From: Xenophilus aerolatus
GTDB lineage: Bacteria > Pseudomonadota > Gammaproteobacteria > Burkholderiales > Burkholderiaceae_C
Reading direction: 5' to 3'
Assembly: GCA_030418545.1 (NCBI GenBank)
Contig: QAIB01000003.1
Span: forward strand, 434,001 to 498,000
DNA length: 64,000 nucleotides
Every line of letters starts with the position of its first letter. The stretch's first letter is position 1. The notes beneath the pieces are model-generated. The model was not told the DNA's origin. It was given only the letters and a program-made list of their open reading frames with translations, and searched no databases. This document shows, one piece after another, positions 2,494-50,919 of the stretch. The translations under genes were made by a program, and so were the position numbers.

Positions 2494-2560
2494 GCTATCC
2501 TTTTAGTAGCAGTCGACGCCCGCCCCATAAGCGTCGGACGCCGATTCGGCTCCTGAACTT
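2494..2560 (+). repeat. Dispersed GCTAT palindromic element, copy 1
   Basis: The head GCTATCCTTTTAGTAGC (2494-2510) is followed by a tail containing GCGTCGGACGCCGATT and a final GGCTCCTGAACTTC, matching the layout of the better-preserved copies: palindrome, GC-rich middle with GGACGGGCGC, then a GCTTCAAAA-like end. It is degenerate. It ends exactly where the DUF3299 stop codon begins. Confidence 0.55.
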
Positions 2561-3160
2561 CTACTTGGCGCCGCCCGTGTACTTGGTCACCGTGTCGGCC
2601 GTCATGGTGTAGCCGCTGGTGCCCATCATCGAGTCGTTGCGTTGTGCCACCAGCTTGCCCGTGACCCACACCGTGTCCATGGCACGGAACTTGGCCGGCG
2701 ACTTGGGCCGCACGTGCAGGATCTGGTTGGCCGGCGGCGGCGGCGTGTGGATGCAGGCCCCGAAGTACGGCACCAGCAGGAACTCGCTCACCTCGCCCTT
2801 GTTCTCTTCCAGCGGCACGATGAAGCCCGGCAGCTTCACGTTCTGGCCGTTCATCTCGGGGTTGGTGGGGGCGTTGTTCGACACCTCCTGCATCTTCAGC
2901 AGCAGCTCGTTCGCGCGCGGGTCGGCGTCGTCGAGCTTGGACAGGTCGATGTCCTTGAAGGCCTTGGCCGGGTCCCAGTCCTTGGGCACCAGCTCTTCCC
3001 AGGTGATCTGGCGTGGCCCGCTGCTTGGCTTGGCCGAGGCACCCTTGCCGCCCAGCGGGTTGGTCGCGGTGGTGGCCTCGGGCGCAGGGCCTGCCGCCAG
3101 TGCGGCGGTGGCAACGGCAGTGCCCAGCAGGGCGATCAGAGTGGAGCGCAGGGTGGTCAT
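2561..3160 (-). CDS. DUF3299 family exported protein
   Basis: A 199-residue protein whose start (MTTLRSTLIALL) opens with a signal peptide ending near ALAAG, so it probably acts in the periplasm. The body includes ITWEELVPKDWDP and a conserved region around FLLVPYFGACIHTPPPPANQ, typical of DUF3299. The start lies 2 bases after the stop of the FtsX-like permease, within one unit with the ABC ATPase and ZrgA-like genes. DUF3299 proteins are found with zinc-regulated ABC systems (the zrg cluster of Vibrio), so a metal-linked role is likely, but no catalytic function is established from the sequence. Confidence 0.8.
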   Translation of the reverse strand: MTTLRSTLIALLGTAVATAALAAGPAPEATTATNPLGGKGASAKPSSGPRQITWEELVPKDWDPAKAFKDIDLSKLDDADPRANELLLKMQEVSNNAPTNPEMNGQNVKLPGFIVPLEENKGEVSEFLLVPYFGACIHTPPPPANQILHVRPKSPAKFRAMDTVWVTGKLVAQRNDSMMGTSGYTMTADTVTKYTGGAK

Positions 3161-3162
3161 CG

Positions 3163-4494
3163 TCAGATCCTCGGAGACAGGCCGTCGGCCAGCGACAGGC
3201 GGTACGCCCGGATGCCGGGCAGCAGGCTGGCCAGCCAGCCGGCGGCGAGCAGCCCGCCCAGCAGCAGCCATTCGTTCAGTGTAGGGGCCGACAGCTGCAG
3301 CGCGAGGCCGTACTGCGCCTGCAACCACGGCCCCAGTGCGGCGATGCCCAGGGCCGCCAGCAGGGCGCCCAGCGCCACGCCCAGCACGGTGACGATGGCG
3401 CCTTCGAGCGCCAGCAGCGCCAGCACGTGGCGCAGGCTCGCGCCGACGGCGCGCAGCACGGCCAGCTCGCGCCGCCGCTCGTTGAGCCCGGCCATCACCA
3501 CCGACACCAACCCGGCCAGGCTGACGATGCCCACCAGGCCCGACATCGCGAGCAGCGCCTTCTCGCCCACGCCGATCACCTGCCACAGTTCGTCGAGCGC
3601 CACGCCGGGCAGGATGCCCATCAGCGGCTCCTCGGGATAGGTCGACACCCAGCGCTGCACCGAGAACACGGCGGCGCGGTTCTTCAGGCCGACCAGCGCG
3701 GCCGTGACGTTCTTGGGCGTGAGGTCGAACTTGCGCACCTGCTCGGCGCTGATCTTCACGCCGGGCATCGGCGCACCGCCGACCCATTCGAGATGGATGG
3801 CCTCCATCGCCTCCAGCCCGATGTGCACGGTGCGGTCGATGGGCGTGCCGGTGCGCTTGAGGATGCCGACCACCGTGAAGGGCTTGTCGGCATGTTCGGG
3901 CGTGAGCTCGCCGCTGCCGTGGGCCAGGGTGATCTGCTTGCCGACGTGGTAGCCCAGCTGCTCGGCCACGTCCGCGCCCACCACCGCATCGAACAAACCC
4001 GTTGGCCCCGAGGATTGGGCTGAGCCCGATCCGCCCCCCGAGGGGGGCAAAGAAGCTGGGGGCGGCCCGGCGCTTCTTTGGGAGAACACCTTGCCCTCGG
4101 CCAGCAACTGCTCGCCGCGGCGCACGTGGTCGAAGTAGGCCGGCGTGGTGGCCACCACCGGAAAGCCGCGGTGCGAATCGCCCAGCGACAGCGGCACCAC
4201 CCAGGCCACGCCCTTGTGCGCCTCCAGCGCCTGCACGCTCTTCCACGCGATGTTGTTGGTCGCACTGCCGATGTGGAACACCGAGTACAGCAGCAGCTGC
4301 GTGCTGCCCGTGCGCGCGCCCACGATCAGGTCCGTGCCCGACACGGCCGACGCGAAGTTCTCGCGCAGCTCGGTGCGGATGCGCTCCACCCCCAGCAGCA
4401 GCAGCGTCGCGAGCGCGATCGACAGCACCGTCAGCGACAGCGTGAAGCGCCGGTTCCAGGCGCTCTTCCAGGCAATGGCGAGGAGGGCGTTCAT
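3163..4494 (-). CDS. FtsX-like ABC transporter permease (zinc-type cluster)
   Basis: A 443-residue membrane protein with the MacB/FtsX layout: an N-terminal membrane helix (residues about 17-35), a large periplasmic core, then three C-terminal helices from about residue 290. The periplasmic core carries an odd low-complexity stretch at residues about 139-164, rich in Gly, Ser and Pro; the underlying DNA (4003-4080) is a copy of a GC-rich repeat seen twice elsewhere in the window, so it looks like an in-frame insertion. The partner ATPase lies upstream, separated by a 144-base gap that holds a hairpin element. FtsX-type permeases usually act on envelope proteins or lipids by mechanotransmission rather than by solute import. 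Confidence 0.85.
   Translation of the reverse strand: MNALLAIAWKSAWNRRFTLSLTVLSIALATLLLLGVERIRTELRENFASAVSGTDLIVGARTGSTQLLLYSVFHIGSATNNIAWKSVQALEAHKGVAWVVPLSLGDSHRGFPVVATTPAYFDHVRRGEQLLAEGKVFSQRSAGPPPASLPPSGGGSGSAQSSGPTGLFDAVVGADVAEQLGYHVGKQITLAHGSGELTPEHADKPFTVVGILKRTGTPIDRTVHIGLEAMEAIHLEWVGGAPMPGVKISAEQVRKFDLTPKNVTAALVGLKNRAAVFSVQRWVSTYPEEPLMGILPGVALDELWQVIGVGEKALLAMSGLVGIVSLAGLVSVVMAGLNERRRELAVLRAVGASLRHVLALLALEGAIVTVLGVALGALLAALGIAALGPWLQAQYGLALQLSAPTLNEWLLLGGLLAAGWLASLLPGIRAYRLSLADGLSPRI
4003..4080 (-). repeat. GC-rich repeat, copy 1, in frame inside the ABC permease
   Basis: Read on the minus strand it contains GCGCCGGGCCGCCCC, a spacer, then CCCCCCTCGGGGGGC, the same two blocks in the same order as the copies at 37724-37803 and 51814-51888. 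Its length keeps the permease frame open. Confidence 0.65.
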
Positions 4495-4514
4495 GGATAC
4501 GGATGCGGGAACCG

Positions 4515-4619
4515 TACGCGAAGGACGCGAAGGTCTCGCGAAGGACGCGAAAAAGACAGCGGGAAAATTTTCATTGAATTCTTTTGCGACCTTCGCGGGA
4601 CCTTTGCGCCTTTCGCGTA
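4515..4619. repeat. Hairpin-forming inverted repeat between ATPase and permease genes
   Basis: The left arm starts TACGCGAAGGACGCGAAGG and the right arm, reverse complemented, starts TACGCGAAAGGCGCAAAGG. About 39 bases pair with a handful of mismatches, and both arms run into A-rich sequence near the centre. The left arm also holds direct repeats of GCGAAGGACGCGAA. No reading frame is evident. It could fold in the ATPase-permease transcript and alter its stability. Confidence 0.65.
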
Positions 4620-4638
4620 TGGAGGTCCGATCCCGTTT

Positions 4639-5331
4639 TCATGCCACCGCCGAAACCGCCGCACGGTTGATCTCGGGCAAGAGCACGTGGCGCGCGAAGC
4701 GGTCGGCGATGCGGCGGTCGTGGCTCACGAAGACGAGGGCGCTGCCGTTGGCTTCGCAGGCCGCCAGCAGCACGTCGAGGAAGGCCTCGCGCCGGTCCTC
4801 GTCGAGGGCGGAGGTGGGCTCGTCGGCGATGACCAGCTCGGGCCGGCCGATGAGCGCACGCGCGGCGGCCACGCGCTGCTGCTGGCCCACCGACAGCTGC
4901 AGGGCGGTGCGCTGCCACAGCTCGGCGGGCAGGCCCATGCGGGCGAGCAGTTCCTCGGCCTGTGCGCGCGACCCCTGCACACGTCGTCGTGCCGAGAAGC
5001 GGCAGGGCAGCAGCACGTTGTCCATCACGCTCAGGTAGGGCAGCAGGTTGAACTGCTGGAAGATGTAGCCCACGTGCGCGACGCGGCAGCGGTCGCGCGC
5101 GCTGCCGCCCATGGCAGCCCAGTCGTGGCCCAGCAGGCACACGCGGCCGCTGTCCGCCACCAGCACGCCGGCCAGCAGCGACAGCAGCGTGCTCTTGCCG
5201 CAGCCGCTGGGGCCATGCAGGAACACGGCCTCGCCGGCGCGCACCTCGAAGCGCTCGATGTCGATGCACGGCGCGGCGGCGCCGGGCCAGGCGAAGCGCA
5301 GGTCCTGCGCCTGCAGGACTACGGAGCTCAT
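4639..5331 (-). CDS. ABC transporter ATPase (zinc-type cluster)
   Basis: A 230-residue ATPase of the LolD/MacB type that powers the FtsX-like permease downstream. Walker A is GPSGCGKST near residue 40, the Q-loop is in YIFQQFNLLPYL, the signature reads LSVGQQQR, and Walker B is LVIADEPTSALD. The signature has V-G-Q in place of the usual S-G-G, a common variant in this subfamily. I chose the ATG at 5331 (MSSVVLQ), because the ORF extension upstream adds residues not expected for the family. It is cytoplasmic, with ZrgA-like and DUF3299 genes on either side of the ATPase-permease pair. Confidence 0.88.
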   Translation of the reverse strand: MSSVVLQAQDLRFAWPGAAAPCIDIERFEVRAGEAVFLHGPSGCGKSTLLSLLAGVLVADSGRVCLLGHDWAAMGGSARDRCRVAHVGYIFQQFNLLPYLSVMDNVLLPCRFSARRRVQGSRAQAEELLARMGLPAELWQRTALQLSVGQQQRVAAARALIGRPELVIADEPTSALDEDRREAFLDVLLAACEANGSALVFVSHDRRIADRFARHVLLPEINRAAVSAVA

Positions 5332-5403
5332 TGGATAGCCCCCGCGCGACGCGCTGCGGTGCAAACTCCCTTCGGAGCGGCCGGGCGCGGGCTCATGCGC
5401 GCG

Positions 5404-5973
5404 TCACTTGCCCCAGCCGATGCGGGCGCTGCCGGACGCGGGTCGCTTCAGGCTGCGCTTGAACTGGCCATCGGGCGCGGCGATCTCGGCCTCGATCTGA
5501 CGCGTGGCGGGAAATGCCTCGAACAGCTGCGTGTCGACGAAGCGCGCCTTGGCCGCATTGGTGCAGTTGAAGGCGAAGCTGGCCTCCAGTTCCGCATGCC
5601 CGTCCTTGTCGGGCTCGGCCTTGCCCAGGCCGAGCGCGGCCGATTCGAGCTGCACCGGGCCGAGCTTGCAGCCGGCGGCCGGGTCGATCTGGAACAGGTG
5701 GTCGGCCGCACGAAGGCGTGCCACCATCTGCTCGACCGCGTTCTTCTCGACGTCGGTGCGCGGCGCGCGCTCGAAGCCCAGCAGGTTGTCCAGCGGCGAC
5801 TCCATCTCGATCGTGACCGACGGGCCGTCGACGGCGATGCCGAGCTCGACCTTGCCGTGCACGTGCGCATGCTGGGCGCGCTGCGCCAGCGCCGGTGAGG
5901 ACAGCAGCACGGCGCCGGCCGTGAACAGCGAAAGGACGAGAAAGGTGCGGAAGAAGGGTCGTGTCATGCGCAT
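5404..5973 (-). CDS. ZrgA family (DUF2796) zinc-linked periplasmic protein
   Basis: A 189-residue protein with an N-terminal signal peptide (cleavage near SPALAQ) followed by HAHVHGKVELGIAVDG, the His-rich opening that defines DUF2796, and a later NLLGFERAPRT block. The family was named ZrgA from a zinc-regulated cluster in Vibrio, where it works with an ABC transporter and a DUF3299 protein; the same set is found here. Metal binding by the HxHxH segment is inferred. An alternative start two codons in (5967) is equally plausible, since no strong ribosome binding site is visible. It starts 9 bases after the sulfurtransferase stop. Confidence 0.8.
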   Translation of the reverse strand: MRMTRPFFRTFLVLSLFTAGAVLLSSPALAQRAQHAHVHGKVELGIAVDGPSVTIEMESPLDNLLGFERAPRTDVEKNAVEQMVARLRAADHLFQIDPAAGCKLGPVQLESAALGLGKAEPDKDGHAELEASFAFNCTNAAKARFVDTQLFEAFPATRQIEAEIAAPDGQFKRSLKRPASGSARIGWGK

Positions 5974-5982
5974 CGTCAGCGG

Positions 5983-6894
5983 TCAGGGCTGCGGCCCCTG
6001 GCGGGTCGGCAGGCCCGGTGTGTTGCTCCATTCGCTCCAGCTGCCGGCGTACAGGGCCGGGGTGCCCAGGCCGGCGATCTGCATCGCCAGCACATTGGGC
6101 ACGGCGCTCACGCCGCTGCCGCAGTGGTGCACCACGGTGGCGGGATCGCGCCCGGCCAGCAGCGCCTCGAATTCGGCGCGCAACTGCTCGGCAGGCTTGA
6201 AGCGGCCATCGGCCGTCAGGTTGTCGGCGAAGGGGCGGTTCAGCGCCCCGGGGATGTGACCGGCGATCGGGTCCAGAGGTTCCACCTCGCCGCGGTAACG
6301 AGGTGCAGCACGGGCATCGACGAGGGTCTGCGCGGGATCGTCCAGTCCGGCCGCGACCGTCTTCGTGTCGACCAGCCGCACCAAGGGCGCACCCGGCACG
6401 AAGTTGGTCTGGAAGTGCGCCGGCTCTTCGCCCGCCTTCGCGGGCAGGCCCGCCGCCTGCCAGGCCTGCAGCCCGCCGTCGAGCACGGCCACCGCGTCGT
6501 GGCCCATCCACTTGAGCATCCACCACAGGCGCCCACAGTAGTTGGCACCGTTGCGGTCGTAGACCACGGCCTGCATGTCGTTGGCCAGCCCCACCGACGA
6601 CAGCCAGGCCGCGAACTTCTCCCGGCTGGGCAGCGGGTGGCGTCCGCCCGATGCGGGCTTGTCGGCCTCCTGCGCGACCAGCACCTGGCCGCCCGGGCCC
6701 GGGTGGCCATGTCTGGCACTGAGGTCGGTGTCGAGGTTGGCGTACACCGCGCCCGGGATGTGGGCGTCGAGGTACTGCGCCGGCCCGACCTCGGGCTTCG
6801 TGAGGTCGAAGGTGCAGTCGAAGATGCGCAGCGGCGCCTTGGCATCGATCAGTGCCTGCAGTTGCGAAACGGAGATGAGCGTCGAGTAGGTCAT
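5983..6894 (-). CDS. sseA: Sulfurtransferase, thiosulfate/3-mercaptopyruvate type
   Basis: A 303-residue protein of two rhodanese domains. The C-terminal domain holds the active-site loop HHCGSGVSAVPN, with Cys258 as the expected persulfide-carrying residue; CGSGV loops are typical of 3-mercaptopyruvate sulfurtransferases, which move sulfur from mercaptopyruvate to thiols or cyanide. The N-terminal domain has YDRNGANYCGRLWWML and is expected to be structural. I chose ATG 6894 (MTYSTL); the longer frame would add 21 unlikely residues. The gene may be cotranscribed with the zinc-type cluster, starting 76 bases after the DMT permease stop. Confidence 0.85.
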   Translation of the reverse strand: MTYSTLISVSQLQALIDAKAPLRIFDCTFDLTKPEVGPAQYLDAHIPGAVYANLDTDLSARHGHPGPGGQVLVAQEADKPASGGRHPLPSREKFAAWLSSVGLANDMQAVVYDRNGANYCGRLWWMLKWMGHDAVAVLDGGLQAWQAAGLPAKAGEEPAHFQTNFVPGAPLVRLVDTKTVAAGLDDPAQTLVDARAAPRYRGEVEPLDPIAGHIPGALNRPFADNLTADGRFKPAEQLRAEFEALLAGRDPATVVHHCGSGVSAVPNVLAMQIAGLGTPALYAGSWSEWSNTPGLPTRQGPQP

Positions 6895-6993
6895 GGCAGG
6901 TGGGCTGGAGGCGCGCGCCTGGCGCGCGGCAACCATTGTGCGGGCACCCGCGGCCATTCTGGACGGCGGGGCTTTGGCCGACCTGACTCGTGT

Positions 6994-7917
6994 TCAGTGC
7001 TCTTCGGCCGGCGCCTTGGGCACCGCGCGCTGGCGCAGCACCGTGGCCAGGATGCCGCTGCCGATGATCAGCGCGATGCCGCCCCAGCCGGCCAGGTCGA
7101 TGCGGTCGCCGAACAGCAGCACGCTGTAGAGCGCGCCGAACACGATGCCCGAGTACTGCAGGTTGGCCACCACCAGCGTGGCGGCCTGGGTCTTGGCGCT
7201 GGCGTAGGCCCGCGTCAGGCACAACTGGCCCAGGGCGGCCAGCACACCCACCGGCAGCAGCCACAGCGCATGCGCCCAGGACCAGGCCGACACACCGGTG
7301 AAGAGCATCCACAGCGCGCCGGTCACGGTGGAGCCCACGGCGAAGTAGAAGACGGTGCGCGTCTCGGGCTCGCCGATGCGCGACAGCGCGATCACCTGCA
7401 TGTAGGCGAAGGCGGCGGCCATGCCCGACAGCAGGCCCACCAGGCCGGCGAAGGCGTCGGCACCCTGCGTGCTGGGCTTGAGCAGCAGCACCACCCCCAC
7501 GAAGCCGGCCACCACCGTGAGCGTGAGCGGCCCCTGCAGCGGTGGCAGCGGCACGCGGCCGTTGCGCCCGGGCACCGGCGCCCACGCGAGCAGCGCGCCA
7601 CCGACGAGAAAGGCCGCGATCCAGATGCTGCTCATGTAGTTCAGCGTCATGGCCGTGGCCAGCGGCATGTGGGCGATGGCGTAGAACCAGGCGCCCAGCG
7701 ATGCGGTGCCGATGATGCTGCGCCAGGCGTGCATGCCGGGGTACTGCGTCTTCAGCGTCACGCCCTGGCGGCGGGCCAGCGCGGCCAGCACGACCATGCC
7801 GATCACGCCGCGCCAGAACACGATCTCGGAACTGGCGAACCAGGCCGAGGCGATCTTCACGCACACGCCCATGCTCGCGAAGAGCAGGGCCGACAGCAGC
7901 ATCCAGAGGCTTTGCAT
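6994..7917 (-). CDS. DMT superfamily (EamA) inner-membrane transporter
   Basis: A 307-residue protein with about ten hydrophobic segments arranged as two EamA halves, the drug/metabolite transporter fold. I chose the ATG at 7917 (MQSLWMLLSALLFASMGVC), which opens directly with the first membrane helix; the longer frame would run through the dispersed repeat next door. Members export amino acids, metabolites or drugs, and the substrate cannot be told from sequence. It lies between the sulfurtransferase and Rieske genes, all on one strand. Confidence 0.85.
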   Translation of the reverse strand: MQSLWMLLSALLFASMGVCVKIASAWFASSEIVFWRGVIGMVVLAALARRQGVTLKTQYPGMHAWRSIIGTASLGAWFYAIAHMPLATAMTLNYMSSIWIAAFLVGGALLAWAPVPGRNGRVPLPPLQGPLTLTVVAGFVGVVLLLKPSTQGADAFAGLVGLLSGMAAAFAYMQVIALSRIGEPETRTVFYFAVGSTVTGALWMLFTGVSAWSWAHALWLLPVGVLAALGQLCLTRAYASAKTQAATLVVANLQYSGIVFGALYSVLLFGDRIDLAGWGGIALIIGSGILATVLRQRAVPKAPAEEH

Positions 7918-7954
7918 GCCGCTCGTTCTCAGTGCATGAAGGAACAAAGGCGTC

Positions 7955-8015
7955 GCGAGCCGAATCGGCCCGTAACGCGCGCCGGTCGTGCGCCAGCAGC
8001 TATGAATTCGATAGC
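7955..8015 (-). repeat. Dispersed GCTAT palindromic element, copy 2
   Basis: On the minus strand the head GCTATCGAATTCATAGC is followed by TGCTGGCGCACGACCGGCGC, GTTACGGGCCGATT and CGGCTC. It starts 9 bases past the stop of the Rieske gene, so it forms the 3' flank of that gene, before the DMT permease start. Confidence 0.75.
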
Positions 8016-8023
8016 AGACAGCC

Positions 8024-9187
8024 TCACCGGCGCACTGCCGCCAGCCGCGCCAGCGCATCGGGCGAGGCCTGCAGCTCGCGCCGGTACCACTCGTGGAAGT
8101 GCTGCATGCCGTCCTCCATCGGGCTCTGGTAGGGGCCGACCTCGTTGTCGCCGCGCTGCAGCAGCGCCTTGCGGCCGGCGTCCATGCGCTCGGCGATCTC
8201 GTCGTCCTCGATGCAAGTCTCCATGTAGGCGGCCTGTTGCGCCTCGACGAACTCGCGCTCGAAGGCGACGATCTCCTCGGGGTAATAGAACTCGACCATG
8301 TTCATGGTCTTGTCCGGCCCCATCGGGTGCAGGGTCGAGACGGTGAGCACGTGCGGATACCACTCGACCATGATGTGCGGGTAGTAGGTCAGCCAGATGG
8401 CGCCGTACTCCGGCGGCTTGCCCTCGCGGTACTTGAGCAGCTGCTCGTGCCAGCGCTGGTACACCGGGCTGCCGGCACGGCCGAGACGGTTGGCCACGCC
8501 CACGGTCTGCACCGAATAGCGCGGCTTGAATTCCCAGCGCAGGTCCTCGCAGGTCACGAAGTTGCCCAGGCCCGGGTGGAAGGGGCCGACGTGGTAGTCC
8601 TCGAGGTAGACCTCGATGAAGGTCTTCCAGTTGTAGTTGCACTCGTGCATCTCGACCCGGTCGAGCTGGTAGCCGGTGAAGTCGAGCGTGCTGCGCGGGC
8701 CCATGTGGGCGAGGTCGGCGGCTACGTCGCGGCCGTTCTTTTCGAACAGCAGGCCGTTCCATTCCTGCAGCTCCCAGGTGCGCAGGTTGAGGCACGGGTC
8801 TTCGGCGAAATGGGGCGCACCCAGCAGCGTGCCGGTGGGCTGCGGGCCGGCGGCGTTGTAGGTCCAGCGGTGCAGCGGGCAGACGATGTGGCCGCTGCCC
8901 CGCGCATCGAGCGCGCCGCGGCCCTTCATGATCACGGCCTGCCGGTGGCGGCACACGTTGGACACGAGCTCCACCCCGCGCGGCGTGTGCAGCAGCGCAC
9001 GGCCCTCGTGCTCCTGGGGCAGGGCGTAGAAGTCGCCCGGCTCGGGCACGGCCAGGCAATGGCCGACGTAGCGGGGACCCTTGGCGAAGAAGGTTTCCAT
9101 CTCGAGCGCATACAGCGCCGGATCGAAATACGCGGAAACCGGGAGTTGGCTCGAGGCCTGCTGCAGTTGAAGACTTAAATCAGACAT
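8024..9187 (-). CDS. Rieske aromatic ring-hydroxylating oxygenase, alpha subunit type
   Basis: A 387-residue protein. The Rieske 2Fe-2S ligands are C79-x-H81 (CRHRQ) and C103-x2-H106 (CPLHRW). The catalytic domain shows NWKTFIEVYLEDYHVGPFHPG, which carries the His pair of the mononuclear iron site; the Asp ligand lies later. It should hydroxylate or demethylate an aromatic or quaternary amine substrate using electrons from a separate reductase, but no reductase gene is adjacent. I chose ATG 9187 (MSDLSLQL), since the longer ORF prefixes 59 residues of non-conserved sequence. It is divergent from xseB across a 234-base gap. Confidence 0.87.
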   Translation of the reverse strand: MSDLSLQLQQASSQLPVSAYFDPALYALEMETFFAKGPRYVGHCLAVPEPGDFYALPQEHEGRALLHTPRGVELVSNVCRHRQAVIMKGRGALDARGSGHIVCPLHRWTYNAAGPQPTGTLLGAPHFAEDPCLNLRTWELQEWNGLLFEKNGRDVAADLAHMGPRSTLDFTGYQLDRVEMHECNYNWKTFIEVYLEDYHVGPFHPGLGNFVTCEDLRWEFKPRYSVQTVGVANRLGRAGSPVYQRWHEQLLKYREGKPPEYGAIWLTYYPHIMVEWYPHVLTVSTLHPMGPDKTMNMVEFYYPEEIVAFEREFVEAQQAAYMETCIEDDEIAERMDAGRKALLQRGDNEVGPYQSPMEDGMQHFHEWYRRELQASPDALARLAAVRR

Positions 9188-10605: not shown

Positions 10606-10615
10606 AAATACCCCG

Positions 10616-16718: not shown

Positions 16719-17999
16719 ATGGCCGAGACCCCCGGCACACCGCTGCCCACCGCCTCACGCCTGCCGGCGTCGATCGATTCGCCCGACATGCGCCGCGCCG
16801 GCCGCGAGCTGCTGTCGCTCGCGCTGATCGACGCGCGCAACCACACACTGCACCTGCTGTCGTTGTACGAGGCCGCGCTCGCGTCGCCCGAGCTCGAGCT
16901 GCCGTCGCCGCCGCCGGCCGACGTGGTGCCACCGCGCTGGCTGGCGGGCCACATCGGCTGGTTCGCCGAGTACTGGATCGCACGCAACACGCAGCGCGCG
17001 CTGGGCGTGGACTGCCCCGCGCGGCCCACGCGCCTGGCGGCCATCGATCCAGGCGCCGATGCGGCCTGGGAGCGTCCGCCCGCCCACGAGGTGCGAGCCT
17101 TGCCCGGCATGGCCGACACGCGCGCCTACCTGCTCGAGACGCTGGAGAGCACGCTCGAACTGCTCGAGCACGCCGCCGAGACCGATGCGGGGCTGTACTT
17201 CTATCGCCTCGCGCTGCTCCACGAAGACCTGCGCGGCGAGCAGCTGATCGTGATGGCGCAGAGCCTGGGCCTGGCCATCGGTGCCGAGCTGCCGCCGCCG
17301 GGCACCACGCGGGCGCCGCTGGTCGTGCCCGGCACGCGCTGGACGCTCGGCGCGGCCGATGCGCCGGGCCTGCACCTGGCGCAGGAAACGGGCGCGCAGC
17401 CGATGGAGGTGCCCGAGTTCGAGATCGACGCCCAGCCCGTCACCTGGCAGCAGTTCTGCGAGTTCGTCGACGACGGCGGCTACGACCGCGAGGAACTCTG
17501 GGCGCCCGCCGGCTGGGCATGGACCCAGGCCGAAGGCCGCCGGGCGCCGCGGCATGTCGAACAGATCGGCCTGGGCCACGGCGGTGGCGGCGGGTCGGTG
17601 CTGCAGCAGCGCTTCGGCGCCACCGTGCGCGCCGCGGGGCAGCAGAGCGCGATGCATGTGAGCTGGTGGGAGGCGGACGCATGGGCGCGCTGGGCCGGCC
17701 GACGCCTGGCCACCGAAGTGGAGTGGGAGATCGCCGCCCACAGCGCGGCACGGCGAGGCTTTCGCTGGGGCGAAGTGCAGGAATGGACCGCCGGCACCCT
17801 GCGCCCCTGGTCCGGTCAGCGCCCCGACCCATGGAGCGCCGGCACCGACTTCGACCCGGGCCCCGCCTGGGGCCAGTCGCGCGTGCTGCGCGGCGCCTCC
17901 TTCGCGACGCGTGCGCGCATGCGCGCCCTGCGCTGGCGCGGCTTCGCGATGCCCGGTCGCGACGACGGCTTCTTCGGCTTCCGCACCTGCGCCCTGTGA
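16719..17999 (+). CDS. EgtB/SenA-like SUMF1-domain protein with an incomplete iron site
   Basis: A 426-residue protein with an N-terminal DinB-like helical domain (about 20-190) and a C-terminal formylglycine-generating-enzyme fold (about 205-426; MHVSWWEADAWARWAGRRL and GFFGFRTCAL are typical). This layout is that of EgtB and SenA, iron enzymes that couple a thiol or selenosugar to N-trimethylhistidine. EgtB binds iron through one upstream His and the HxxxHxE motif. Here His78 (AGHIGW) and His168 are present, but the motif reads HEDLRGE, so Arg172 replaces the third ligand. No egtD, senB or senC lies nearby. There is no clear ribosome binding site; CATAAT just upstream suggests a near-leaderless transcript. 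Confidence 0.75.
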   Translation: MAETPGTPLPTASRLPASIDSPDMRRAGRELLSLALIDARNHTLHLLSLYEAALASPELELPSPPPADVVPPRWLAGHIGWFAEYWIARNTQRALGVDCPARPTRLAAIDPGADAAWERPPAHEVRALPGMADTRAYLLETLESTLELLEHAAETDAGLYFYRLALLHEDLRGEQLIVMAQSLGLAIGAELPPPGTTRAPLVVPGTRWTLGAADAPGLHLAQETGAQPMEVPEFEIDAQPVTWQQFCEFVDDGGYDREELWAPAGWAWTQAEGRRAPRHVEQIGLGHGGGGGSVLQQRFGATVRAAGQQSAMHVSWWEADAWARWAGRRLATEVEWEIAAHSAARRGFRWGEVQEWTAGTLRPWSGQRPDPWSAGTDFDPGPAWGQSRVLRGASFATRARMRALRWRGFAMPGRDDGFFGFRTCAL

Positions 18000-18006: not shown

Positions 18007-18070
18007 GCTATCGAATCGATAGCTTGCAGCCAAAGCAGGACGGGCGCTGCAGCCCGATCTCTTCAAAATT
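18007..18070 (+). repeat. Dispersed GCTAT palindromic element, copy 3
   Basis: A near-consensus copy: head GCTATCGAATCGATAGC (18007-18023), TTGCAGCCAAAGC, then GGACGGGCGCTGCAGCC and the end TCTTCAAAAT. It starts 7 bases past the stop of the EgtB-like gene and ends before the histidine kinase stop, so it sits between convergent genes. Confidence 0.85.
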
Positions 18071-18093
18071 GCGCTGCGGTGCCCGTGTGCGGC

Positions 18094-20652: not shown

Positions 20653-20714
20653 GCTATCGAAACGATAGCGGTGCACGCGCCTTGGACGGGCGCTGCGGCC
20701 ACTTTTTCTTTGAG
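20653..20714 (+). repeat. Dispersed GCTAT palindromic element, copy 4
   Basis: Head GCTATCGAAACGATAGC (20653-20669), a 17-base spacer, then GGACGGGCGCTGCGGCC and ACTTTTTCTTTGA. It is nearly the same as copy 3 in its middle block. Unusually it lies in a divergent promoter region, between the histidine kinase and SnoaL-like genes. Confidence 0.85.
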
Positions 20715-20729
20715 GGGTGGATGGGCCGG

Positions 20730-31821: not shown

Positions 31822-32403
31822 ATGGACATGCAAGGCACCCGCCAGCTCGGCGTCACCCAGGAACAGGCCTGGGAAGCCCTCAACGACCCGGAGACGCTCA
31901 AGGGCTGCCTGCCGGGCTGCGACAAGTTCGAGTCGACCGGCGACAACCAGTACGCCGTGACGATGGCCGTGAAGGTCGGCCCGGTGTCGGCCAAGTTCAA
32001 CGGCAAGGTGACGCTCAGCGACATCCAGCCGCCGGCGAGCTACAAGCTGGCCTTCGAGGGGCAGGGCGGCGTGGCCGGCTTCGGCAAGGGCGCGTCGGCG
32101 GTCTCGCTCACGCCCAACGACGCGGGCTGCGAGCTGGCCTACACGGTGCAGGCGCAGGTGGGCGGCAAGATCGCGCAACTGGGCCAGCGCCTGATCGACG
32201 GCGCGGCCAAGTCGATGGCCGACGATTTCTTCAAGCGCTTCGACGCCGAGATGCAGCGCCGCCATGGCCCACCGCCGGCCGAGGCCGCTGCTATCGAAAC
32301 GGGAGCGCCTGCCGCAGAGAAGACGGGCGCCGTGGCCGGATTCATGCAGAAACTCGGCTTCGGCAAGAAGGACAGGCCCGAGGGCGCGCAGGACGAGGGC
32401 TGA
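31822..32403 (+). CDS. coxG: CoxG/SRPBCC family membrane-tethering protein
   Basis: A 193-residue protein with a CoxG-type START/SRPBCC domain (residues about 1-148; LNDPETLKGCLPGCDKFE and VGPVSAKFNGKVTL). CoxG homologues help recruit CO dehydrogenase to the membrane. A linker (residues about 157-177, AIETGAPAAEKTGAVAG) is encoded by DNA matching the dispersed GCTAT element, then a short C-terminal segment GFMQKLGFGKKDRP remains. The element is in frame and appears to have lengthened the linker. AAGGAA lies about 9 bases before the start. Confidence 0.88.
   Translation: MDMQGTRQLGVTQEQAWEALNDPETLKGCLPGCDKFESTGDNQYAVTMAVKVGPVSAKFNGKVTLSDIQPPASYKLAFEGQGGVAGFGKGASAVSLTPNDAGCELAYTVQAQVGGKIAQLGQRLIDGAAKSMADDFFKRFDAEMQRRHGPPPAEAAAIETGAPAAEKTGAVAGFMQKLGFGKKDRPEGAQDEG
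32290..32353 (+). repeat. Dispersed GCTAT palindromic element, copy 5, in coxG
   Basis: Head GCTATCGAAACGGGAGC (the last arm is degenerate), then GCCTGCCGCAGAGAAGACGG with the GACGGGCGC block, GTGGCC, and TTCATGCAGAAAC. It stays in frame with coxG and codes for the inter-segment linker. Confidence 0.65.
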
Positions 32404-34758: not shown

Positions 34759-34763
34759 TAGAC

Positions 34764-34828
34764 GAATTCGAAGCAAAAGTGCCAGAAATGCCCGCTACGC
34801 GGGCGCCGTCAGCTATCGATTCGATAGC
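34764..34828 (-). repeat. Dispersed GCTAT palindromic element, copy 6, ends phaG
   Basis: On the minus strand: head GCTATCGAATCGATAGC (34828-34812), TGACGGCGCCCGCGTAGCG, GGCATTTCTGGCACTTTTG and CTTCGAATTC. The head encodes the last residues of PhaG and its TAG stop codon lies inside the palindrome. Confidence 0.85.
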
Positions 34829-35211
34829 GCTTCGGGTTCCTCGCTCGCCGCCTGGGGTGGGCGTTGCGGGCCGTGGGCGGGCGGCGGCACGTCGCCTCCC
34901 TTCTGTCGCTCGCGGAACAGGGCCGCGCGCATCAGGAAGATGGTGGTGACCGGCGCCGTGAGCGCGACGAAGAAGGCGATCAGCACCGCATGCAGGAAGA
35001 GCTGGAAGCCCTGGACCGAGAAGTACACGATCGTCGCCAGCGAGATCGCCCACACGCCCAGCGTCGCCCCCAGCGTGGGGGCGTGGATGCGGCTGAAGAA
35101 GGTCGGCAGGCGCACCAGGCCGAAGGAGCCGATCGCCGCGAAGGCGGCACCCACCAGCACCAGCAGGGCCGTGAGCCACTCGGCCCACCAGGGCATCGAC
35201 CCGCCGCTCAC
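34813..35211 (-). CDS. phaG: Mrp/Pha cation-proton antiporter subunit G
   Basis: A 132-residue membrane subunit with three helices (ALLVLVGAAFAAIGSFGLVRL and later pairs). FSRIHAPTLGATLGVWAISL is the MnhG/PhaG hallmark. It completes the multi-subunit antiporter that exports Na+ or K+ in exchange for protons. The C-terminal extension after the last helix is Pro/Ala-rich and ends EALSNR, which is encoded by the dispersed palindromic element including the stop codon. It starts 22 bases after phaF. Confidence 0.9.
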   Translation of the reverse strand: MSGGSMPWWAEWLTALLVLVGAAFAAIGSFGLVRLPTFFSRIHAPTLGATLGVWAISLATIVYFSVQGFQLFLHAVLIAFFVALTAPVTTIFLMRAALFRERQKGGDVPPPAHGPQRPPQAASEEPEALSNR

Positions 35212-41122: not shown

Positions 41123-41187
41123 TGCGATCGATTCTATCGACCGACCCTCGTCGGCCCATTGGAAAAAACCGCAGACGGGGCGCTGGT

Positions 41188-41251
41188 CTTTTGAACGAAA
41201 AGTGCCCGGAGCGACCGCCAGCCTTGGGCGGGAAGCTATGAATTCAGTAGC
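41188..41251 (-). repeat. Dispersed GCTAT palindromic element, copy 7
   Basis: On the minus strand: head GCTACTGAATTCATAGC (41251-41235), TTCCCGCCCAAGGCTGGCGG, TCGCTCCGGGCACTTTTCG and TTCAAAAG. It begins 19 bases after the crcB stop and precedes the phaAB start, so it marks the boundary between two same-strand units. Confidence 0.8.
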
Positions 41252-41269: not shown

Positions 41270-41656
41270 TCACGAGGCGACGAACCAATGCACCGTGCGA
41301 ATCCCGACCCACGTCAGCGCCAGCGAGCCCGCCAGGTGCAGGCAGCCGGTCAGCAGCGCGAGCCCCAGCCGGCCGTCGAGCAGCATCGCCACCACCTCGG
41401 CCGAGAAGCTCGAGAAGGTCGTGAGGCCGCCGAGGAAGCCGGTGATGAGCAGCAGCCGCCACACCGGGTCGAGCTGCGGCATGGCCTGGAAGGTGCCGAC
41501 GGCCACGCCGATCAGGTAGCCGCCGATGAGGTTGGCGGCCAGCGTGCCCCAGGGCAGTAGGCCGCCTTGCGTGTTGAGTGCGAGGCCGAGGCCCCAGCGG
41601 GCGAGCGCCCCGAGCGAGGCGCCGAGCGAGATGGCCAATACGGGCAGCAGGGGCAT
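41270..41656 (-). CDS. crcB: Fluoride efflux channel CrcB/Fluc
   Basis: A 128-residue protein with four helices that dimerises to form a fluoride channel. GFLGGLTTFSSFS is the diagnostic pore motif (Phe box with the central sodium site), and LGALARWGLGL opens the protein. The gene starts 37 bases after the second TRAP large permease stop and probably reads from that unit. No fluoride riboswitch fold was seen in the short upstream gap. Confidence 0.94.
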   Translation of the reverse strand: MPLLPVLAISLGASLGALARWGLGLALNTQGGLLPWGTLAANLIGGYLIGVAVGTFQAMPQLDPVWRLLLITGFLGGLTTFSSFSAEVVAMLLDGRLGLALLTGCLHLAGSLALTWVGIRTVHWFVAS

Positions 41657-44606: not shown

Positions 44607-44634
44607 AGGAAAGCCGCCCGGAGGCGGCTTTCCT
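44607..44634. terminator. Intrinsic-type hairpin between comEA-like and dctP genes
   Basis: AGGAAAGCCGCC-CGGA-GGCGGCTTTCCT is a perfect 12-bp stem with a 4-base loop. It lies just past the ComEA-like stop on the minus strand. The stem includes TTTCC rather than a long T run, so termination may be partial. Confidence 0.6.
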
Positions 44635-44651
44635 GGATGGCTGGCGCGGGC

Positions 44652-44978
44652 TCAGTGGGCGGACTTCTTGGCCGCGCCCGGCTTCTTTGCCGCCGACGCG
44701 TCGGCCGCTCCGTCGAACGGCTTCCCATTGACCGTGAGCCCCGCGGCCGAGAGCTTGGCGGCCGACTTCTGCTTGACGCCCTTCACGCGCGCCATGAGGT
44801 CGGGCCAGTCCTTGAACTGGGACTGCTGGCGCGCGTCGACGATGCGCTTGGACAGGGCCGGACCCACGCCCGGCAGCCCGTCGAAATCGGCGACGGAACC
44901 CTTGTTGACTTCGACCGCGGCGGATGCGGCCATCGAGACGGCGGCGAACGCCAGCGAGGCCAGGACTTTCTTGAACAT
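44652..44978 (-). CDS. ComEA-like helix-hairpin-helix exported protein
   Basis: A 108-residue protein with a signal peptide (MFKKVLASLAFAAVSMAASA) and a helix-hairpin-helix segment VNKGSVADFDGLPGVGPALSKRIVDARQ, given here as NKGSVADFDGLPGVG and PALSKRIVDAR. Residues FKDWPDLMARVKGVKQKSAA form the second half. ComEA-type proteins bind DNA in the periplasm during natural uptake; short forms like this are common in Comamonadaceae. The C-terminal tail is Lys/Ala-rich. GGGAG supports ATG 44978. Confidence 0.85.
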   Translation of the reverse strand: MFKKVLASLAFAAVSMAASAAVEVNKGSVADFDGLPGVGPALSKRIVDARQQSQFKDWPDLMARVKGVKQKSAAKLSAAGLTVNGKPFDGAADASAAKKPGAAKKSAH

Positions 44979-45065
44979 GATGACTCCCTGTGTGTTGGTT
45001 GACAATGCGCGTCGATCGCGCCCGGCCATCATGCAAGGGCCTGATGCGTCAGGCCATCGATCCGG

Positions 45066-46250: not shown

Positions 46251-46560
46251 GCTGGCGGGCGATCTGGGGTTCCTGGACGGCGACGGGGCCCGTGCCTTCG
46301 GGCGCGGGATTCGTGCCGACGGGGGTGGGGATCGCGGGCGCCTGCGTGGCGGCGCGCCGATGCTTCCACCATCCGGGGAGCATGCCCAGCGCGCCGACCA
46401 CCATGCCGCCGGCGAAGGCCGCCAGCACCACCAGCACCAGCGGCGCGCGCCAATACGTCCCGAAGAAGAAGTAGACGGTCGCGTCGTGCTGGTTGTTCAG
46501 CGCGAAAGCGAACAGGGTAAAAAAAATGGCTGCCTTGAGCAGCCACAGGAAGTATTTCAT
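46240..46560 (-). CDS. lapA: LPS assembly protein LapA (DUF1049)
   Basis: A 106-residue inner-membrane protein with two helices (LLKAAIFFTLFAFALNNQ and LVLVVLAAFAGGMVVGALG) and a Pro/Ala-rich cytoplasmic tail. NNQHDATVYFFFG is the DUF1049 signature. It works with LapB in lipopolysaccharide homeostasis. It starts 42 bases after the ihfB stop in the same run. Confidence 0.9.
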   Translation of the reverse strand: MKYFLWLLKAAIFFTLFAFALNNQHDATVYFFFGTYWRAPLVLVVLAAFAGGMVVGALGMLPGWWKHRRAATQAPAIPTPVGTNPAPEGTGPVAVQEPQIARQHGL

Positions 46561-46602
46561 CGGTGTCCCGTGAGCCCGGGACCGATTCTACGGAGCCGGG
46601 TG

Positions 46603-46929
46603 TCAGGCCCTCTCGCGCTGGCGCTGCTGCTCGGCCTCGAGTTCGGCGCTGCGCGCATCCACGGCCTCGCGCAGGGCCTTGCCCGGCTTGAAGTGGGGCA
46701 CCCGCTTCTCGGGGATCTGGACACTCTCGCCCGAGCGCGGGTTGCGTCCGATGCGCGGCGGCCTGCGGCTGACCGAGAAGCTGCCGAAGCCACGGATCTC
46801 GATGCGATGGCCGCGCACCAGCGCGTCGCTCATGGCGTCGAGGATGGTCTTGACGGCGTACTCGGCGTCGCGATGCGTCAATTGCGCGAAGCGGGCGGCG
46901 AGTTCTTCAACCAGGTCGGAGCGTGTCAT
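46603..46929 (-). CDS. ihfB: Integration host factor beta subunit
   Basis: A 108-residue nucleoid protein that pairs with IHF alpha to bend [34 protein letters not shown] and [20 protein letters not shown] are the expected IhfB motifs, including the beta-arm Pro. The tail past residue 94 is a charged extension (EQQRQRERA). ATG 46929 is chosen over an upstream start by family alignment. It follows rpsA after a strong hairpin, a conserved gene order. Confidence 0.95.
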
Positions 46930-46945
46930 GGGTCGGCAGATGGAA

Positions 46946-46971
46946 ACACGGCGAGGCAAGCCTCGCCGTGT
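46946..46971 (-). terminator. Hairpin between rpsA and ihfB, attenuator or terminator
   Basis: ACACGGCGAGGC-AA-GCCTCGCCGTGT is a perfect 12-bp stem with a 2-base centre (longer loop in practice). On the minus strand it is followed by TTCC. It lies 22 bases past the rpsA stop and 17 bases before ihfB, so it could reduce read-through and set the rpsA to ihfB ratio. Confidence 0.65.
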
Positions 46972-46992
46972 CCGGGTACCGCGCTTGGCGGC

Positions 46993-48678
46993 TTACTTGT
47001 CGCTGTTGTCCAGCTTGGCGCGCAGCAGGGCGCCCAGGCTGGTCGTGCCGGCGTTCTCGCGGGCCGACTGCTGGCTCAGGCTGGCCATGGCTTCCTGCTG
47101 GTCGACCATGTCCTTCTGCTTGATCGACAGCTGGATGTTGCGGGTCTTGCGATCCACATTGACCACCACGGCCGTGACTTCGTCGCCTTCCTTGAGCACG
47201 TTGCGGGCATCTTCCACGCGATCGCGGGAGATTTCCGACGCACGCAGGTAGCCGACCACGTCGTTGCCCAGGTCGATCTCGGCGCCGCGCGGGTCCACGG
47301 TCTTGACCTTGCCGGTCACGATCTGGCCCTTGTCGTTCACCGTCGTGAAGGTGGTGAACGGGTCGCCGTCGAGCTGCTTGATGCCCAGGCTGATGCGCTC
47401 GCGGTCGACGTCGACGGCCAGCACGATCGCTTCGACTTCCTGTCCCTTCTTGTAGTTGCGAACGGCGGTTTCGCCGGCTTCGTTCCACGAGAGGTCGGAC
47501 AGGTGCACCAGGCCGTCGATGCCGGCAGCCAGGCCCACGAACACGCCGAAGTCGGTGATCGACTTGATCGGGCCCTTGACGCGGTCGCCGCGCTTGGTGT
47601 TCTGCGCGAATTCCTGCCAGGGGTTGGCCTTGCACTGCTTCATGCCCAGGCTGATGCGGCGCTTGTCTTCGTCGATCTCGAGGACCATGACTTCGACTTC
47701 GTCACCCAGCGACACGATCTTGTTCGGCGCGATGTTCTTGTTGGTCCAGTCCATTTCGGAGACGTGGACCAGGCCTTCGATGCCCGGCTCGAGTTCGACG
47801 AACGCGCCGTAGTCGGCGATGTTCGTGACCTTGCCGAACAGGCGGGTGCCCTGCGGGTAGCGGCGCGAAACGCCCATCCACGGGTCGTCGCCCATCTGCT
47901 TGAGACCCAGCGACACGCGGTTCTTCTCGGTGTCGAACTTGAGGATCTTGGCGGTGATTTCCTGGCCGGCCTGAACGACTTCGCTCGGGTGGCGGACACG
48001 ACGCCAGGCCATGTCGGTGATGTGCAGCAGGCCATCGATGCCGCCGAGGTCGACGAACGCACCGTACTCGGTGATGTTCTTGACCACGCCGCGGACCACG
48101 GCGCCTTCCTTCAGCGTTTCCATCAGCTTGGCGCGTTCTTCGCCCATGCTGGCTTCGACCACGGCACGGCGCGACAGCACGACGTTGTTGCGCTTGCGGT
48201 CGAGCTTGATGACCTTGAATTCGAGGGTCTTGTTCTCGAAGGGGGTCAGGTCCTTGATCGGACGCGTGTCGATCAGGGAACCCGGCAGGAAGGCGCGGAT
48301 GCCGTTGACCAGCACCGTGAGGCCGCCCTTGACCTTGCCGCTGGTGGTGCCGGTGACGAATTCGCCGGATTCCAGGGCCTTCTCGAGCGCCAGCCACGAA
48401 GCGAGGCGCTTGGCGGTGTCACGCGAGAGGATCGTGTCGCCGTAGCCGTTCTCGACGGAGCCGATGGCCACCGACACGAAATCGCCGGCTTGCACTTCGA
48501 GTTCGCCCTTGTCGTTCTTGAACTCTTCGATCGGCACGTAGGCTTCGGACTTCAGGCCGGCATTGACCACCACGTGGTTGTGCTCGACACGCACCACCTC
48601 GGCGGTGATGACTTCGCCTGCGCGCATTTCGGAACGCTGGAGGGACTCTTCGAAGAGAGCGGCAAAAGATTCAGACAT
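46993..48678 (-). CDS. rpsA: 30S ribosomal protein S1
   Basis: A 561-residue protein with six S1 (OB-fold) repeats, the full-length proteobacterial form. It unwinds and delivers mRNA to the 30S subunit. [20 protein letters not shown] and [19 protein letters not shown] lie in repeat 3, which is central to mRNA binding. I chose ATG 48678 ([12 protein letters not shown]). It follows cmk after a 219-base leader that contains hairpins, where autogenous control would be expected. Confidence 0.97.
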
Positions 48679-48897
48679 TGAGTTTCCTGTTCCGTCCACC
48701 CAGGTTTCCAGCCGCCCATGCAGGATCGCTTGCGGCTGTTTCTATGACTGGAGACGGCGGTTTGGGTCACACGGACGTGACCCCGGGTTGGGGTTGAACA
48801 ACCAGCAGGCCGGTGCGCTGACGCGCGAGGAGGACCTGCTGGACCAAGGACCGCCCGGCAGATGTTGTGCCGGAGGCCCGAGCCTTCAATGCCTGCT
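48679..48897 (-). promoter_or_regulatory. rpsA leader with stable hairpins
   Basis: This gap between cmk and rpsA has no gene. It holds the dyad GGGTCAC-ACGGAC-GTGACCC (48764-48783) and, beside it, GGTTG...CAACC. E. coli S1 represses its own synthesis through structured leader RNA, so a similar role is plausible. No promoter was confidently placed. Confidence 0.4.
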
Positions 48898-50919
48898 TCA
48901 GCGGGCGTCGAAAGGCTGCACCTGCCGCCACCAGGCCAGGACCTGATCCACCGATTGCTCGATGCTCTGGTCGGAGTTGTCCAGGAGGCGGGCGTCTTCG
49001 GCGGGCTTGAGCGGCGCGACGCTGCGGGACGAATCCCTCGCATCACGCGCCTCCAGGTCGGCGCGAAGACTGTCGAGTGTAACCGAAATTCCCTTTGAAA
49101 TCAACTGCTTATGCCGGCGCTCGGCGCGGTGCGCGGCGCTGGCCGTGAGGTAGACCTTCAGGGAGGCGTCGGGGAAGATGACGGTGCCCATGTCACGTCC
49201 GTCCGCCACCAGGCCGGGCAACTGGCGGAAGGACAGTTGCAGCTCGCGCAGGGCCTCGCGCACGGCCGGAAGCGCCGACACGCGGGACGCGTCCATGCCC
49301 GCGGCTTCGGTGCGGATCGCCTCGGTGATGTCCTCGCCGGCCAGCAGCACTTGGCCGGCGTCGAAGCGCAGGGCCAGGCCGCGGGCGAGTTCGGCGATCC
49401 GGGCCTCATGGGCCGCATCGGCTTCCAAGCCCGCGCGCCGCATGACCAGGCCTGCGACCCGGTACAGGGCGCCCGAGTCGAGGTAGTGGTAGCCGAGCCG
49501 ACGTGCGATCTCGGCCGCGAGCGTGCCCTTGCCCGAGGCAGTCGGGCCGTCCACGCAGATGACGGGCACCTCGGCCGGTTGGACCACGGAGAACAGCGCT
49601 TCGAAATAGTCCGGGAAGGTCTTGCCGACGCACTTCGGGTCGAGGATGCGCACCGGCAGCCGGTCCGGATTGAAGGCCGCGAGCGAGAAACACATGGCGA
49701 CCCGGTGGTCGTCGTAGGTGTGGATGCTGGCACGCCGCCAGTGGCCGGGCGGCAGCGGGTCGATGCGGATGAAGTCCGGTCCGGCCTCGACCGTGGCGCC
49801 GAGCTTGCGCAGTTCGGCCGCCATGGCGTCGATACGGTCGGTCTCCTTCACGCGCCAGCTGGCGATGTTGCGCAGCGTGCTGGGACCGTCGGCGTACAGC
49901 GCCATCACGGCCAGCGTCATCGCGGCGTCGGGGATGTGGTTGGCGTCGATGTCGATGGCGCGCAGCGGCCAGGCCCCACGCTCGATCTGCAGCCAGTTGG
50001 GACCGCTGCTGACCTGCGCGCCCATTTGCCGCGCGGCCTCGACGAAGCGGATGTCGCCCTGGATGGAGTCGGCGCCGACGCCTTCGATCTTCAAGCCATC
50101 TTGGCCCGCAGCGCCCGCTGCGATTGCGCCAAGCGCTATGAAATAGCTGGCAGAGGAGGCATCCGCCTCGACATGGATGTCGCCCGGTGACCGGTACTGT
50201 GCACCAGCTGGGATGACGAAGCGCGACCAGCCGTCGCGCTGGACGTCGATGCCGAATCGCGCGAGCAGGTTGAGCGTGATCTCGATGTAGGGCTTGGAGA
50301 TCAGTTCGCCGATCACGTCGATGGTGATGGCGCGCGAAGCCGCCGCCAGGGGAAGAGCGAGCAGCAGCGCCGTGAGGAACTGGCTCGAGACGTCGCCGCG
50401 TACGCGGATCGGCGCGTCCAGCTGCAGCGCCGAAGCGGCGACGGGTCGGATGCGCAGCGGCGGATAGCCGGGGTTGCCGAGGTACTCGACCTGGCAACCC
50501 AGTTGCACCAGCGCGTCGACCAGATCGCCGATCGGACGCTCGTGCATGCGCGGCACGCCGCGCAGCTCGAAGTCGCCGCCCAGCAGGGCGAGTGCCGCGG
50601 TGAGCGGCCGCATGGCCGTGCCGGCGTTGCCGAGGAAGAGCGACAGGGCGCGCTGGCGGACGTCATCGCCCAGGCGGCCGCCGAGTCCCTGAATACGCAG
50701 CACGCCCCCGTCTCGGTGCAGGCCGCAGCCGAGCGTCGCCAGCGCATCGAGCATCACGCGCGTGTCGTCCGAGTCGAGCAGGTCGTGGACGGTAGTGGTG
50801 CCGTGCGCCAGGGCGGCCAGCAGCAGCACCCGGTTGGAGATGCTCTTGGAACCCGGCAGGCGGACCGTGCCGCCGGCCGCCACCAGCGGCGGGACGTCGA
50901 GAAAAGCGGTGGCGTACAT
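48898..50919 (-). CDS. aroA: Bifunctional EPSP synthase / cytidylate kinase
   Basis: A 673-residue fusion. Residues 1 to about 445 are AroA, which makes 5-enolpyruvylshikimate 3-phosphate ([18 protein letters not shown] and [12 protein letters not shown] are substrate loops; [15 protein letters not shown] also conserved). Residues about 450-673 are cytidylate kinase with P-loop [10 protein letters not shown] and [13 protein letters not shown]. Separate genes in E. coli, fused in several Comamonadaceae. At residues about 258-277 the sequence [20 protein letters not shown] is about five residues longer than in E. coli, and its DNA resembles the dispersed GCTAT element. It starts 2 bases after tyrA. 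Confidence 0.96.
50089..50147 (-). repeat. Possible GCTAT palindromic element, copy 8, within aroA
   Basis: On the minus strand: GCTATTTCATAGC (50147-50135), GCTTGGCGCAATCGCAGCGG, GCGCTGCGGGCCAAGATGG and CTTGAAG. The block order and spacing match the other copies, but part of the coding (Ser-Tyr-Phe) is conserved in all AroA proteins, so this could be coincidence plus drift. Confidence 0.45.

Follow-up and report, generated by a model that had tools for sequence, protein, structure and literature searches.

The 64,000-nt stretch of the Xenophilus aerolatus genome analysed here (the window; assembly GCA_030418545.1, contig QAIB01000003.1, positions 434,001 to 498,000) carries copies of a 66-nt repeat, which is a real genome-wide family and not a product of chance. 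Alignments of orthologous genes indicate that the copies lying inside genes are very probably not insertions. We tentatively put forward, as a reading that the analysis allows but does not force, that the element serves throughout the genome as a DNA recognition signal, owes its spread to a bias in uptake or recombination and is neither an RNA element nor a mainly transposable one.

An earlier note on this DNA had listed eight copies of a palindrome-headed repeat in the window, most of them 7-20 bases past a stop codon. Our covariance model was trained on 23 oriented and aligned copies, 19 from contig C11 of the organism’s own 5.84-Mb genome (G000 below, with C11 and C32 as two of its contigs) and four from the window (those at 7950, 18007, 20653 and 34763, which match the model by construction). 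Seven of the eight claimed copies were found by this model at full length with 31-73 bits, three on the plus and four on the minus strand, and the one at 32290 was not upheld. As to placement, three of the seven strictly lie at the claimed distance past a stop codon (8, 7 and 18 nt); the other four overlap a gene end, adjoin the stop of an opposite-strand gene, are flanked by divergent genes or lie inside aroA. Gene ends here and below are those of our own simple gene caller, not of an annotation. The features in question are as follows.

2494-2559, plus strand: degenerate copy, 31.2 bits, its tail 1 nt from the stop of an opposite-strand gene (2561-3160, minus)
7950-8015, minus strand: copy, 72.9 bits, 8 nt beyond the stop of gene 8024-9100 (minus)
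18007-18072, plus strand: copy, 60.6 bits, 7 nt beyond the stop of gene 16719-17999 (plus), with convergent genes on its two sides
20653-20718, plus strand: copy, 51.8 bits, flanked by divergent genes
34763-34828, minus strand: copy, 61.0 bits, overlapping the end of gene 34813-35211 (minus)
41186-41251, minus strand: copy, 35.9 bits, 18 nt beyond the stop of gene 41270-41656 (minus)
50086-50147, minus strand: element-like copy, 35.2 bits by the covariance model and 24.6 bits by a profile hidden Markov model (HMM), inside the aroA coding sequence
48898-50961, minus strand: aroA-cmk fusion gene hosting the copy at 50086-50147, one 687-residue frame that aligns to EPSP synthases and cytidylate kinases
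32290-32355, plus strand: unsupported candidate, 11.8 bits, E 0.15, inside a called gene

The copy at 34763-34828 itself provides the stop codon of gene 34813-35211, in the form of the TAG within ATAGC.

That the repeat is a family of the whole genome is seen already from its head. The 5.84 Mb contain the pattern GCTAT-N7-ATAGC 206 times, vs once for the same pattern written backwards, and GCTAT-N6-ATAGC 4 times vs 0; all 150 of the 150 own-genome candidates among the matches listed score E<=1.1e-9. The profile scan that the earlier note had called for bears out its expectation of a genome-wide excess: an HMM built from the same 23 copies retrieved 99 matches at E<=0.01 in 864 kb, and at that threshold none in the reversed sequence and none in a Markov shuffle (which gave 2 at E<=1). 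In 604 kb from five genomes of the same genus there was no match of at least 36 positions at E<=0.05, and in 444 kb from three of those five, the best match of any length reached only 10.4 bits.

Conservation beyond the palindrome, which the note had also claimed, is supported as well. The element is a 66-nt composite of a GCTAT-N7-ATAGC dyad, a GCGC-N11-GCGC block and an AT-rich tail, with the consensus (T/C)GCTAT-N7-ATAGC TGCYC GCGC-N11-GCGC TGCAGSCC GATTT..CTTGAAA. In a column profile of 64 copies the edges are sharp and the composition outside them is that of the background, while inside near-random columns alternate with columns of high information. From the 105 copies scoring 30 bits or more, the information in the element amounts to 62.7 bits. 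At positions 8-12, 27-31 and 49-54, the own-genome copies use discrete alternative words (AGGCG or CCGYC; CGATTY or ACTTTT; AATTC or AATCG), which assort freely between blocks and possibly reflect two modes of recognition or short tracts of conversion.

The copies inside genes can be set against orthologues from the 15 genomes of the genus. At the aroA copy, all 15 orthologues align through the site without a large insertion, and in the region of the copy AroA has 5 extra residues, not 22, relative to solved EPSP synthases. The ATA codon that completes GCTAT-TTC-ATAGC, a head with a spacer of 3 nt vs 7 in the consensus, is found only in the five genomes that carry the motif in full (G000, G124, G125, G127 and G128); the codon is ATC in the genome G120 and in the nine other genomes of the genus. 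The full carriers also show the tail GGGC..GGCC..TGG..TGAA, in varying quality, and G120 has part of it.

Eleven further gene-internal copies were searched for in ten genomes of the genus, six of these having few or no copies. For nine of the eleven, at least one genome with few or no copies spans the site (for seven of the nine, genomes with zero copies do), and the spanning regions range in length from 18 less to 35 more than our own, with none about 66 short; a second, weaker spanning match, in G130, is 21 shorter. The two copies not spanned are those in hemD (C32 351627) and at C32 499759, so that, with aroA, 10 of the 12 gene-internal copies are spanned without a 66-nt difference. Seven copies were inspected base by base, namely those in trpF, uvrD, ileS, a short-chain dehydrogenase gene and rlmD-like, hscA-like and ndh-like genes (Pfam names). 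In trpF, where the protein aligns gap-free to the solved PRAI chain 1lbm, the element occupies an ordinary stretch of the fold, and the codons for QFHGDE, which are CAG TTC CAC GGC GAC GAG in G120, are CAA TTT CAT GGT GAT GAA in our genome. Scored with the HMM, the fetched orthologues reach 19.2-39.9 bits in carriers other than G000, 7.7-31.1 bits in G120 and at most 5.5 bits in the others.

Within the genus the motif is very unevenly distributed, with at least 150 matches in five of the 15 genomes (two of them of one species), 94 in G120, 6 in G122, 2 in G132 and none in seven. An aroA tree, computed with the motif columns left in, places the full carriers in one clade with G120 as its sister. 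Over G120:C4:1-400000 (L094-L113), G120 has 16 recognisable copies vs 51 in the matching stretch of our genome, and many of its orthologous sites are intermediate, a state that is either early or decaying.

Beyond the genus, a match is present in at least 38 of 120 genomes of the family, the window’s own included; this is a lower bound because the model is tuned to the variant of our own genome and the filters were stricter. In a named collection at least 118 stretches match the pattern, and the 80 named loci listed come from Acidovorax, Rhodoferax, Polaromonas, Simplicispira, Curvibacter, Giesbergeria, Diaphorobacter, Xenophilus, Comamonas and Ottowia, from metagenome-assembled genomes placed only as Comamonadaceae, Burkholderiaceae, Burkholderiales, beta- or Proteobacteria, and from one such genome of Rubrivivax. 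We take the ten named genera to be Comamonadaceae, as we do Verminephrobacter eiseniae, to which we return below; from these genera and a remark in the earlier note, the window’s own family is presumably Comamonadaceae as well. A consensus of the named copies, at E<=1e-3, matches 5 of 72,556 plasmid records (one each from Diaphorobacter, Acidovorax, Comamonas, Citrobacter freundii and an uncultured source) and none of 50,697 phages, and the own-genome consensus at 1e-5 matches none of the same plasmid or phage records. The match on the Diaphorobacter plasmid NZ_CP049911.1 is full-length and lies under cobN; that on the Citrobacter freundii plasmid NZ_CP154589.1 is partial.

At the seven window sites, related carrier species also have a copy wherever the site is covered: G125 and G127 do at the 7950 site (where the flank distance differs in G125), G125, G127 and G128 at the 18007 site, and the same three plus G120 at the 41186 site. 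Compared across five intergenic sites of the window, carrier species disagree at 9.3% of the high-information columns vs 31.8% and 35.9% elsewhere, which supports, at the level of aligned sequences, a constraint on the element between carrier species. Heads with 0, 1 and 2 mismatches number 46.7, 57.5 and 100.8 per Mb, vs 0, 6.6 and 84.4 in other genomes, i.e., the excess of near-matches is graded, being clear at one mismatch and slight at two, a pattern that a motif under drive should show. Relative to G120, motif columns diverge more than flanks, with coding copies at 24.1% vs 10.2% (16 intergenic and 10 coding sites); this excess is confined to A/T columns and is confounded by possible decay in G120 and by the choice of copies.

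The setting of the copies was surveyed over 1.2 Mb of our genome (C11 1-800k and C32 150-550k) at E<=1e-3, with the 23 training copies included. This region holds 131 copies, or by extrapolation about 640 per genome; 110 are extragenic and 21 lie deep within genes (10 sense, 11 antisense). The enrichment just past stop codons that the note had anticipated is present, with 72 of the 110 extragenic copies having a gene 3′ end no more than 25 nt away; a 5′ start is as close in 31 of the 110. Of these 110 copies, 27 have the adjoining 3′ end on their head side, 30 on their tail side, 15 on both sides and 38 on neither, and the element is therefore indifferent to gene direction. The largest stretch free of copies measures 69 kb (G000:C11:411106-480253). 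Six of its ten sampled proteins are flagellar, and a sigma factor was found as well; because of these flagellar proteins, we regard it as a core gene cluster and reject, for this largest stretch, the idea that copy-free stretches are mobile islands.

On the reading of the element as a recognition signal, a factor of the cell would read three blocks at fixed spacing, namely the GCTAT/ATAGC dyad around its AT-rich spacer, GCGC-N11-GCGC and the GATTT..CTTGAAA tail. Stretches that nearly match, in tolerant places such as the DNA past genes or the coding sequence of protein loops, would be drawn to the consensus by substitution and then kept. The driving step would most likely be that better-matching DNA is preferentially taken up or recombined, a molecular drive like that of the DNA uptake sequence (DUS) of Neisseria and the uptake signal sequence (USS) of Haemophilus. 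We propose a signal spread in this way because DNA uptake sequences likewise evolve in place; uptake-sequence dialects, i.e., variants between lineages, have reportedly been studied. We infer that the reader is a protein, that uptake or recombination is the driver and that the intergenic copies have the same origin as those inside genes.

Several observations weigh against this proposal. At 66 bp and 62.7 bits the element is far above the 9-12 bp cores of known uptake signals, and because it fails on length we do not class it as a DUS or USS and only infer a role in uptake. The competence protein ComEC, which G000 has and which is present in 114 of 120 genomes of the family, occurs with or without the motif and is uninformative as a discriminator of carriers; G042, with 7 motif matches, yielded no ComEC, and in G003, with 34 matches, the ComEC match is split into three pieces. 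Accrual in the carriers and decay in G120 are indistinguishable. Part of the intergenic copies may have been inserted: in 6 of 11 comparisons, which cover six spacers in all, the spacer holding a copy exceeds its counterpart in another species by 50-190 nt, although copy-free spacers vary as widely, the median length difference being 55 nt with a copy vs 37 nt without one (43 comparisons). Lastly, Rhodoferax bucti has near-identical copies at L247:510-550 and 2478-2518, 2 kb apart and with a common upstream flank, a pair that is a genuine local duplication.

The last two points would be expected of an old non-autonomous mobile element, resembling a repetitive extragenic palindrome (REP) or a miniature inverted-repeat transposable element and possibly mobilised in the past by a Y1 transposase, its copies having been homogenised or reshaped by short ectopic gene conversion. 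The sharp 66-nt edges and the recurring short alternative words also suit such an origin, as do intergenic sites that are shorter in other species: about 86 nt are missing from G120 at the 20653 site, and of 51 own copies compared with G120, 47 have both flanks there, with a distance of exactly 66 nt in 26, clearly shorter in 5 and otherwise different in 16. A candidate mover exists in a single Y1_Tnp gene beside gltB, similar to REP-associated tyrosine transposases (RAYT; L040:1462-2157, at about 153.6 kb of G000:C32), which an element copy adjoins in 5 of 14 loci, in L040 directly past the stop (2159-2209, minus). However, 14 of the 15 genomes of the genus, both carriers and non-carriers, have Y1_Tnp at the same locus (in G122 the locus aligns, and no protein was extracted), and we therefore reject the gene as a cognate transposase limited to carriers. 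Nor do the copies look like descendants of one another. Among 125 copies, linkage between columns more than 12 nt apart is 0.0413 vs 0.0411+-0.0005 in shuffles, compared with 0.0761 vs 0.0406 for columns at most 6 nt apart, and the closest pair of 105 copies is identical at 55 of 66 positions, within the 50-56 of column shuffles; there are therefore no subfamilies, though short alternative words recur. The earlier note had offered a non-autonomous mobile element as the general explanation, and with the gene-internal copies not inserted and with neither subfamilies nor near-identical pairs among the copies compared, it is not supported in that role; an old element of this kind, since reshaped, we consider unlikely.

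The note’s other suggestion, a selected 3′ structure, survives as far as the constraint on sequence goes. As a selected RNA structure past the stop, i.e., a terminator or mRNA stabiliser with two hairpins, it would account for the crowding at gene 3′ ends, for the 13 of 58 intergenic copies of one set that sit between convergent genes and for the pairing of positions 27-37 in 80 named copies (0.54 vs 0.34 shuffled), a signal that can also follow genome G+C. The RNA hairpin is nonetheless unsupported, because copies face the neighbouring gene end about equally often either way, 21 of the 131 are found deep in genes on either strand and the head loop is without covariation (none at positions 6-12 or 7-11 in the 80 named copies); the 23 own copies likewise showed no compensatory change in the hairpins, and a scan against Rfam matched only transfer-messenger RNA (tmRNA) models and none for the element. 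We hold this explanation to be very improbable. The tmRNA gene itself lies at 59800-60185 of the window (plus strand), encodes the tag ANDERFALAA and is overlapped by a weaker permuted-tmRNA match. A selected binding site for a chromosomal protein (of nucleoid organisation, segregation, gyrase or repair), evolved in place for the benefit of the cell and with no bias in uptake or recombination, would explain origin in place, constraint and indifference to orientation equally well, and would suit an element that is chromosomal and almost never on plasmids. Yet copy spacing is random, with a coefficient of variation of 0.94 vs 0.96 for random spacers, for which reason a chromosome organiser with even spacing is rejected; no replication-strand bias is consistent between C11 (50 minus, 30 plus) and C32 (28 plus, 23 minus); 7 of the 15 genomes have no match; and 62.7 bits is well above what one protein would need for about 640 sites. 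Such a site is, in our estimation, a rather doubtful explanation.

If the recognition-signal proposal is true, self-marking of DNA extends to a bacterial family beyond the two classical ones and would influence which soil and water bacteria exchange genes with each other. It is possible, though we would not lean on it, that Comamonadaceae are a third lineage of self-marking by sequence-biased uptake or recombination, with the longest such signal, written by substitutions even into conserved enzymes and gained or lost within a genus; the split within the genus makes gain and loss testable by comparison. Whatever the reader, a motif of about 63 bits that rises in place in unrelated genes such as aroA and trpF demands explanation, and annotators should not mistake such copies for insertions or terminators.

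An account of the whole element was not found in the one open-access library searched, and what look like pieces of it are described in the accessible part of PMC5217627 as unexplained spaced pairs, GCTTAT(N)5AAGCG in Acidovorax ebreus (114 copies) and ATAGCT(N)22CAAAAG in Polaromonas naphthalenivorans (125 copies). Like the element, these motifs are mostly intergenic, near gene ends and often convergent. The first pair turns up 17 times in our 80 listed loci, 6 of these under a strict test of one strand, with 11 of the 12 printed visibly within the element; the second is present once, within a Polaromonas copy. That part of PMC5217627 covers fragments only, in two genomes, and holds nothing on the whole element, its spread or its origin in place. 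Another short dispersed repeat, the BRE of Bordetella and Comamonadaceae, is given in the available text of PMC3110155 as about 90 bp long, often tandem and present in at most 29 copies per genome; the element is set apart from it by this published layout only, the sequences not having been compared. REP/RAYT (Y1) systems share with the element short palindromic repeats past genes and a Y1_Tnp gene whose stop is followed by a copy; unlike in those systems, the gene-internal copies here are not inserted, there are no subfamilies and Y1_Tnp also occurs in motif-free genomes.

The closest comparison is with the DUS of Neisseriaceae and the USS of Pasteurellaceae. The element differs from both in its 66 bp, three blocks and about 63 bits vs a 9-12 bp core, and the uptake-enhancing sequences treated in the portion of PMC1939737 available to us are neither palindromes nor biased to gene ends, unlike our palindrome-headed element, which crowds gene ends in either orientation. 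For the family itself, the accessible text of PMC4212676 suggests sequence-limited natural transformation in Verminephrobacter eiseniae. According to the same portion of PMC1939737, uptake-enhancing sequences arise in place, favour tolerant DNA, have no orientation and come with graded near-matches. The element resembles DUS and USS in its hundreds of scattered copies without orientation preference, in its seat in spacers and tolerant coding stretches, in its graded near-matches and in its apparent formation by substitution in place, as seen at 10 of the 12 gene-internal copies.

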